From assembly GCA_000145985.1 (NCBI GenBank), contig CP002098.1, positions 1,716,501 through 1,780,500 on the forward strand: a DNA stretch of 64,000 nt, given 5' to 3'. The DNA comes from Ignisphaera aggregans DSM 17230. Lineage in GTDB: Archaea; Thermoproteota; Thermoprotei_A; Sulfolobales; Ignisphaeraceae. Below, piece by piece: positions 22,965 to 24,052 of the stretch; the first letter of the stretch is position 1, and each line of letters begins with the position of its first letter. A program made the position numbers and the translations under genes. The notes below the pieces were generated by a model. The model was not told the DNA's origin, searched no databases, and saw nothing but the letters and a program-made list of their open reading frames with translations.

Positions 22965-23813
22965 ATTCCACTGCTACGTGATATAGCTAGAGAGATTCTT
23001 GGTGATAGCTATGCTTCTATTATTTGGAAGAGGATAGAGATTATAGGTGATATAGCTGTTATTAGAAAGCCTTTTGGTATTGATATTGATATTCTTAGGA
23101 GACTAGGTATAGAGATGCTAAATCGTTTGAAGTATGTAAAGAGTGTTTGGCTTGCTGTAACCCCTGTGGAGGGTGATTATAGAACTAGAGAGTATATTCA
23201 TTTAGCTGGTGAGTATAGGAGTGAAACTGTGTATAGGGAGCATGGATGTAGTTTTCTTTTAGATATAACTAAGGTCTATATATCTCCTGTTCTTAGCTAT
23301 GACCATATGAGGATAGCTAAGCTAGTTATAGAGGGTGAGAAGATATTGAATATGTTTGCAGGTTTTGGAGGGTATAGTATTGTTGTATCAAGATATGCAA
23401 AACCTTCATATACACTATCTATTGATATAAATCCTTATGCTGTTAAGTATATGAGGATTAATATAGAGCTTAATAGAGTTGAAGCTATAAATGATGTTAT
23501 TGAGGGTGATGCTCTAACAATTGCAGATGGACTTAGATGTTGTTTTGATAGAATATTAATGCCCCTGCCAGAGCTTGTCTATAGAGCCATAGATAAATCA
23601 ATTGATTTAGTGAAAAATAATGGTTTTATACATCCCCATATATTTATCAATGCAAATAATAGAAGAGAAGCATTTGAAAAAGCTTCTAAAACACTTTTAG
23701 AATATATAGAGAGATATAGAGTTATTGGAAGAGTGATGGGGGGTCATGTAATAAGAAGTATAGCTCCTAGAAAATACCATGTCACTATAGATATACAGAT
23801 TATAAAGAACTAA
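22965..23813 (+). CDS. Trm5/Taw2-family tRNA methyltransferase (position 37 purine)
   Basis: This class I SAM methyltransferase modifies G37 of tRNA (m1G) or its wyosine derivatives. It has ILNMFAGFGGYSI (SAM loop), LSIDINPYAVKYM and the catalytic-type MPLPELVYRA. The first ATG (23115) would remove the N-terminal domain, but 50 more in-frame codons upstream read IIGDIAVIRKPFG, which matches the family's N-terminal domain. An in-frame TAA at 22950 limits the frame. AAGGTGA at 22951-22957 lies seven bases before ATT 22965, the best-spaced start. A one-base error near ATG 22960 is the alternative. Confidence 0.75.
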   Translation: MPLLRDIAREILGDSYASIIWKRIEIIGDIAVIRKPFGIDIDILRRLGIEMLNRLKYVKSVWLAVTPVEGDYRTREYIHLAGEYRSETVYREHGCSFLLDITKVYISPVLSYDHMRIAKLVIEGEKILNMFAGFGGYSIVVSRYAKPSYTLSIDINPYAVKYMRINIELNRVEAINDVIEGDALTIADGLRCCFDRILMPLPELVYRAIDKSIDLVKNNGFIHPHIFINANNRREAFEKASKTLLEYIERYRVIGRVMGGHVIRSIAPRKYHVTIDIQIIKN

Positions 23814-23824
23814 TCATTTTAGGG

Positions 23825-23875
23825 ATGATGAAGGAGGTGATCACATGAAAAGATGGTGAGAGATCAACCATCTGA
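23825..23875 (+). ncRNA. C/D box guide sRNA A (guides match both ends of 16S rRNA)
   Basis: The order is C box ATGATGA (23825-23831), a 13-base guide, D' ATGA (23845-23848), a four-base spacer, C' ATGGTGA (23853-23859), a 12-base guide, and D box CTGA (23872-23875). This is the compact archaeal architecture. The D' guide contains AGGAGGTGATC, an 11-base complement of the 16S 3' end GATCACCTCCT. The D guide GAGATCAACCAT contains an 8-base complement of GGTTGATC near the 16S 5' end. The gene starts 11 bases after the trm5 stop codon. Confidence 0.72.
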
Positions 23876-23888
23876 CTACAAAGAATTA

Positions 23889-23937
23889 TCAGCCCATGGA
23901 AATAACATCACAGTTCAGATCCTGCCGATAACATCAT
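23889..23937 (-). ncRNA. C/D box guide sRNA B (guide matches 16S rRNA 5' end)
   Basis: On the minus strand the order is C box ATGATGT (23931-23937), 12-base guide TATCGGCAGGAT, D' CTGA (23915-23918), three-base spacer, C' GTGATGT (23905-23911), 12-base guide TATTTCCATGGG, and D box CTGA (23889-23892). The 12/3/12 spacing is textbook. The D' guide is complementary over nine bases to ATCCTGCCG of the conserved archaeal 16S 5' end (GGTTGATCCTGCCGG). It should direct 2'-O-methylation of the U in AUCC(U)GCCG. The target of the other guide is not known to me. Confidence 0.85.
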
Positions 23938-23970
23938 CTTAACACTACAGACTATATAGAACTAAACCAC

Positions 23971-24004: not shown

Positions 24005-24052
24005 TCAGACTCGGGTTCTATCATCATATATCAGAAGCGGACCTAACATCAC
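24005..24052 (-). ncRNA. C/D box guide sRNA C
   Basis: On the minus strand the order is C box GTGATGT (24046-24052), 11-base guide TAGGTCCGCTT, D' CTGA (24031-24034), three-base spacer TAT, C' ATGATGA (24021-24027), 12-base guide TAGAACCCGAGT, and D box CTGA (24005-24008). All four boxes fit and the spacing is regular. The D guide pairs with ACTCGGGTTCTA, whose core CGGGTTC resembles tRNA T arms, and the D' guide pairs with AAGCGGACCTA. I cannot assign targets without rRNA and tRNA sequences. Confidence 0.83.

Follow-up and report, generated by a model that had tools for sequence, protein, structure and literature searches.

The window, the 64,000-nucleotide stretch of Ignisphaera aggregans DSM 17230 DNA analysed here, contains a dual-guide C/D box sRNA gene, sRNA A, with a complete C/D/C'/D' anatomy as read from the sequence. 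From 5' to 3' it runs C box, D' guide, D' box, the tetranucleotide AAAG, C' box, D guide and D box (Table 1), and every box and guide position given in the original prediction was found in the sequence. Under a 12-nt spacing rule, CATG at 23844 is an alternative D' box. The gene starts 12 nt past the stop codon that ends a TRM5/TYW2-type methyltransferase gene, which is an ordinary context: many archaeal sRNA genes overlap a neighbouring gene or sit within 25 nt of one (PMC7994747). sRNA A has the terminal boxes of an archaeal dual-guide C/D box sRNA and internal boxes with guides of ~12 nt, and against the 16S rRNA of the same genus its guides form at least 8 bp abutting box D or D' in keeping with the N+5 rule. 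In a search of Rfam, nothing apart from tRNAs matched at the gathering level; at relaxed thresholds sRNA A reached 11-15 bits against C/D families, far under their gathering scores, which does not bear on class membership because these families differ by guide. We regard sRNA A as real and conserved; it adds a new RNA to a known class, that of C/D box sRNAs, and its pair of predicted targets is unusual.

Table 1. Coordinates of the features at the sRNA A locus, as positions in the window.
Feature	Position	Strand	Basis or remark
TRM5/TYW2-type methyltransferase gene	23115..23813		stop codon 23811..23813
sRNA A, C box to D box	23825..23875	+	box anatomy; orthologs; alignment
C box of sRNA A, ATGATGA	23825..23831	+	TGATGA invariant in 14 aligned orthologs
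D' guide, AGGAGGTGATCAC, 13 nt	23832..23844	+	11 bp to 16S 3' end GAUCACCUCCU
D' box, ATGA, degenerate	23845..23848	+	not conserved between orthologs
C' box, ATGGTGA	23853..23859	+	sequence reading and alignment (C' partly invariant)
D guide, GAGATCAACCAT, 12 nt	23860..23871	+	8 bp to 16S 5' end GGUUGAUC
D box, CTGA	23872..23875	+	invariant in alignment
sRNA B, convergent C/D box sRNA	23889..23938	-	snoPyro_CD 33 bits, gathering score 45
Probable third C/D box sRNA	24005..24052	-	GTGATG..CTGA..ATGATGA..CTGA

A second C/D box sRNA, sRNA B, is convergent to sRNA A, and the same convergent arrangement recurs in seven further family members (G001, G002, G003, G005, G006, G007 and G142). sRNA B carries a D' guide, TTATCGGCAGGAT, with a match to AUCCUGCCG at the 16S 5' end and a D guide, TTATTTCCATGGG, with a match to 16S CCAUGGAAGU, located ~35 nt past AUCCUGCCG. 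These matches were equalled by 22/300 and 140/300 shuffled guides, respectively, and are weaker when a single sequence is considered, but the guide cores of sRNA B are conserved. At the 16S 5' end A (by its D guide) and B (by its D' guide) cover overlapping bases, which we take to belong to helix 1 and the pseudoknot strand. Because of this overlap, A and B would not be bound there on one molecule together, and either of them, once bound, is predicted to exclude helix 1 and the pseudoknot strand.

Pairing with the two ends of 16S rRNA

The 16S gene of I. aggregans itself was not recovered from the searched assembly (G000; one contig, 1,875,953 bases, 99.84% complete) with a covariance model, a 3'-end pattern or 3.2 kb of a relative's rRNA region, and is probably masked there, and the targets were read on the 16S genes of same-genus genomes. 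All four such genes contain CCGGTTGATCC and CTGGATCACCTCCT exactly, the 5' end reading ...CCGGTTGATCCTGCCGG... and the 3' end reading ...CTGGATCACCTCCT. On these genes the D' guide forms 11 bp with GAUCACCUCCU, a duplex that includes the anti-Shine-Dalgarno, stops at the mature 16S 3' end and has a predicted energy of -20.2 kcal/mol. When the D' guide was scanned over a same-genus rRNA region, the 16S 3' end was the top site with a score of 28 against 18 for the runner-up, and no shuffled guide (0/300) equalled it, in agreement with the original prediction that this 11-base complementarity is improbable by chance. The D guide forms the predicted 8 bp with GGUUGAUC at the 16S 5' end (-12.8 kcal/mol), ~1.5 kb from the other site. 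Stronger matches elsewhere in rRNA, which had been named as grounds for doubt, were absent for the D' guide; for the D guide the 16S 5' end ranked first in one same-genus genome and second in another. Shuffled D guides did as well at this site in 85 of 300 cases, and thus the 8-mer match is not significant when judged on one sequence alone.

Comparison of orthologs gave a different picture of the shorter match. Among 13 orthologous loci, mean pairwise identity was 1.00 for the 10-nt D' core and 0.96 for the 8-nt D core, compared with 0.28 and 0.26 in the 30 nt on the upstream and downstream sides, respectively, and 0.35 immediately past the D' core. The invariant alignment columns comprise TGATGA of the C box, GGAGGTGATC, part of C', most of GATCAACC and CTGA. 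An exception in the D core, GATTAACC, keeps pairing through G-U, and the D' guide of G001, AGGAGGTGAACCAG, pairs with CTGGATCACCTCCT with one internal mismatch. Both guides occur together in 12 of the 18 genomes of the window's family (f1), or 13 counting G001; G140 carries the 5'-end guide alone, and no convincing match was found in four of the 18, some of which are incomplete genomes. Since the D core is 96% identical against 26-28% in the flanks, the 8-bp match is not a chance one, and the caution that it might be, justified on a single sequence, does not hold across orthologs. Conservation of both guide cores between flanks at the random level indicates that the two guides are under selection for pairing with the two 16S ends.

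The two pairings differ in how precisely they are positioned for modification. The register of the D guide is exact, with AACC-NN-CTGA in all 14 aligned sequences, and by the N+5 rule it targets the first U of GGUUGAUC in every one of them, a residue that presumably corresponds to about U13 in E. coli numbering. Because this register is invariant, 2'-O-methylation at the first U of GGUUGAUC by the D guide is likely. The D' boxes in the window's family are degenerate and lie 1-5 nt past GATC, and in several Ignisphaera-type sequences a good D' box is either missing or 4-5 nt distant. The D' box ATGA of the window would direct modification to the U before CACC, the residue originally proposed, whereas the 12-nt spacing and the canonical D' boxes of families f2 and f4 (GGAGGTGATC-N-CTGA) would direct it to the C following that U. 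Methylation at the 16S 3' end by the D' guide is uncertain because the D' box is poor. As the D' register drifts and the 10 pairing bases do not, selection probably acts more strictly on the anti-Shine-Dalgarno pairing than on a methyl group at this place. Conserved pairing with an unconserved register would be expected of a clamp or mask and not of plain methylation, although a relaxed D' requirement in this clade is another possible cause of the drifting register.

The two guides in other families

To follow each guide by itself, the C box joined to the anti-Shine-Dalgarno guide was searched as the pattern TGATGAN{0,5}GGAGGTGATC, which was present in 35 of the 229 class genomes, nearly all in f1, f2 and f4, compared with 2 matches in total for the reversed pattern. 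The 5'-end guide GATCAACCGGCTGA was present in 44/229 class genomes with 0 matches of the reversed control; 30 of the 44 belong to family f9, which has 40 genomes. Six f9 loci were read, and in these the 5'-end guide forms the C'-D half of a C/D RNA whose D' guides are different, and it is lengthened to GGATCAACCGG, a perfect complement of the 16S 5' end. At two f9 loci (L120 and L121, in G108 and G107) GGATCAACCGG|CTGA occurs in a C/D RNA with a AAAATTAATT-type D' guide, directly followed by another convergent C/D-like element.

In f2 and f4 the anti-Shine-Dalgarno D' guide is often coupled to other D guides. The usual D guide in f2, GGATGCAACCG, needs a one-base bulge to pair with the 16S 5' end (-14.9 kcal/mol), its other ungapped rRNA targets were weak, and other members of f2 and f4 have unrelated D guides. 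A compensatory change in f2 16S rRNA that would fit GGATGCAACCG was looked for and not seen; f2 16S mostly retains CCGGTTGATCC. At one f4 locus (L004, in G015) the 16S 5' end is CCGCTTGATCCTGGCGG, in which a compensatory helix 1 change breaks the match to GATCAACC, and two further f4 genomes (G038 and G039) carry the anti-Shine-Dalgarno guide with a different D guide.

Only the window's family and some f2 genomes yielded the two-ended combination. A scan of 84,980 species for both guides in one RNA returned 15 loci, all in related MAGs, two of them labelled Ignisphaera, and some of these are f2 loci with the bulged guide GATGCAACCG. Elsewhere in the phylum the dual-guide signature gave three extra matches that were judged to be chance; two of them, in family f40, resemble by eye one conserved coding sequence. 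Each guide thus also occurs independently of the other, and their combination is lineage-specific and retained where present. The original interpretation of a C/D guide RNA with both guides maintained against the 16S ends stands, but a conserved need for holding the two ends together is made less likely, because outside the window's family the two guides are mostly on separate RNAs.

Possible roles of sRNA A

We consider it probable that sRNA A acts in an ordinary C/D RNP that methylates the residue near U13, with the anti-Shine-Dalgarno guide serving partly as a clamp or mask. From what is observed, namely the arrangement of its boxes, its complementarity to the 16S rRNA of relatives, and its conserved guides and D-box register, we infer its transcription, RNP assembly, methylation, and masking or tethering. 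The C/D and C'/D' motifs would recruit L7Ae, Nop5 and fibrillarin, the D guide would pair with GGUUGAUC of pre-16S rRNA and lead to a 2'-O-methyl group on its first U, and the D' guide would pair with GAUCACCUCCU and may direct methylation of the C or U directly 5' of ACCUCC. The bound RNP would prevent the 16S 5' end from entering helix 1 or the central pseudoknot and would cover the anti-Shine-Dalgarno up to the mature 3' end, and both 16S ends would be held or masked until the RNP is released. Tethering or masking by sRNA A is a reasonable hypothesis.

The two guides could instead be independent methylation guides that came to share one RNA by the chances of sRNA evolution, the pairing of the ends having no function of its own, a reading that we judge nearly as likely to be right as wrong. 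Archaeal sRNAs swap guides (PMC7994747, PMC4644070), and the two guides are separable modules because each is found with other partners, the 5'-end guide with other D' guides in f9 and the anti-Shine-Dalgarno guide with other D guides in f2 and f4. Independence does not account for the combination being kept in 12 of 18 family genomes (13 with G001) and in two f2 genomes, and plain methylation fails to explain why the D' register drifts though the pairing does not. The latter pattern, an invariant D' pairing without an invariant methylation register, is what would be expected of an assembly clamp resembling U3, which would keep the 5' end from helix 1 and the pseudoknot and mask the anti-Shine-Dalgarno and the 3' cleavage site until late in assembly, methylation being secondary. 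The end of the D' duplex at the mature 3' end fits such a clamp, as does the overlap of the A D guide and the B D' guide with the presumed helix 1 and pseudoknot-strand bases. Long-range sRNA chaperones have also been proposed for archaea (PMC4644070, Table 3). We nevertheless find a dedicated clamp doubtful, as the combination is absent from most archaea and even from most relatives, and U3 differs in its 5' ETS contacts and architecture. An extended version would make the system an archaeal functional counterpart of U3, in which convergent A and B jointly cover the 16S 5' end so that neither helix 1 nor the central pseudoknot can form, and the second guide of A clamps and masks the anti-Shine-Dalgarno and the 3' cleavage site, coupling 5' and 3' maturation before mRNA contact; this we think unlikely.

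Two further readings concern the Shine-Dalgarno-like character of the D' guide. As a perfect Shine-Dalgarno mimic, the mature RNA could bind the anti-Shine-Dalgarno of finished 30S subunits and damp Shine-Dalgarno-dependent translation, and a Sulfolobus solfataricus RNA with a pseudo-Shine-Dalgarno has been seen bound to the 30S anti-Shine-Dalgarno (PMC11698992). Such a decoy would leave the conserved 5'-end guide and the extension of the pairing to AUC unexplained, and the sRNA should sit in an RNP with its guide channel occupied, making this role quite improbable. The element could also be an ideal Shine-Dalgarno, AAGGAGGTGATC, placed a few bases ahead of the ATG of a tiny open reading frame in the window (ATG AAA AGA TGG TGA, encoding MKRW, 23845-23859), in which case the locus would be an mRNA start or encode a leader peptide instead of a guide RNA. 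This reading was rejected as extremely improbable: neither the ATG nor the four-codon frame is conserved in orthologs, whereas the C box, C', D guide and CTGA are, and no longer frame runs on from it.

Relation to known RNAs and neighbouring sRNAs

The two ends of mature 16S rRNA share no common helix; in pre-rRNA they are joined by the leader/trailer stem. Dual-guide C/D sRNAs with distant targets have been proposed as long-range chaperones by Dennis et al. 2015 (PMC4644070), and those of its Table 3 (Nanoarchaeum equitans sR15/sR17 and others) resemble sRNA A in having C/D/C'/D' boxes and two guides with far-apart rRNA targets. Unlike sRNA A, none of the 15 rows of that table joins the 16S 5' end to the 3' end or the anti-Shine-Dalgarno; a further difference is that the guides of A are conserved over several genera and its D' register is not. 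Eukaryotic U3 snoRNA likewise forms a C/D-type RNP and likewise pairs at the 5' end of small-subunit rRNA, its box A binding the 18S 5' end and the pseudoknot region (PMC8339473). It is a much longer RNA that makes contacts in the 5' ETS and directs no methylation, whereas sRNA A, at ~55 nt and with canonical guide spacing, leaves no room for a U3-type 5' domain and is complementary to the 3' end too. A 2021 review states that archaea have no known U3 and no known processing snoRNPs of the non-modifying kind (PMC8339473), and a literature search that stopped short of the main subscription papers found no report of an sRNA on an archaeal anti-Shine-Dalgarno. As a short conserved RNA with guides for exactly those two places, sRNA A makes it testable how archaea time the central pseudoknot and shield the anti-Shine-Dalgarno while the ribosome is assembled. 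sRNA A is also a case of guide pairing conserved more strictly than methylation register.

Among the neighbouring RNAs, sRNA B can be compared with sR1 of Sulfolobus acidocaldarius, which we take to target 16S U52. In the 16S 5' domain the D guide of sRNA B is directed at the U of GCCAUGG, which is probably this U52 site; sRNA B differs in that its other guide is directed at AUCCUGCCG at the extreme 5' end and in being convergent to sRNA A. The guides of the probable third sRNA in the window, TTAGGTCCGCTT and GATAGAACCCGAGT, have weak rRNA matches, with 40/300 and 190/300 shuffles as good. At two other loci (L019 and L020, in G011 and G138) a different convergent C/D sRNA lies beside sRNA A with the guides AATTACTCCCGG and AACTTGCCCGA / AACTTACCCAA; this second guide presumably looks like antisense to a conserved GGGTAAGTT stretch of 23S rRNA.
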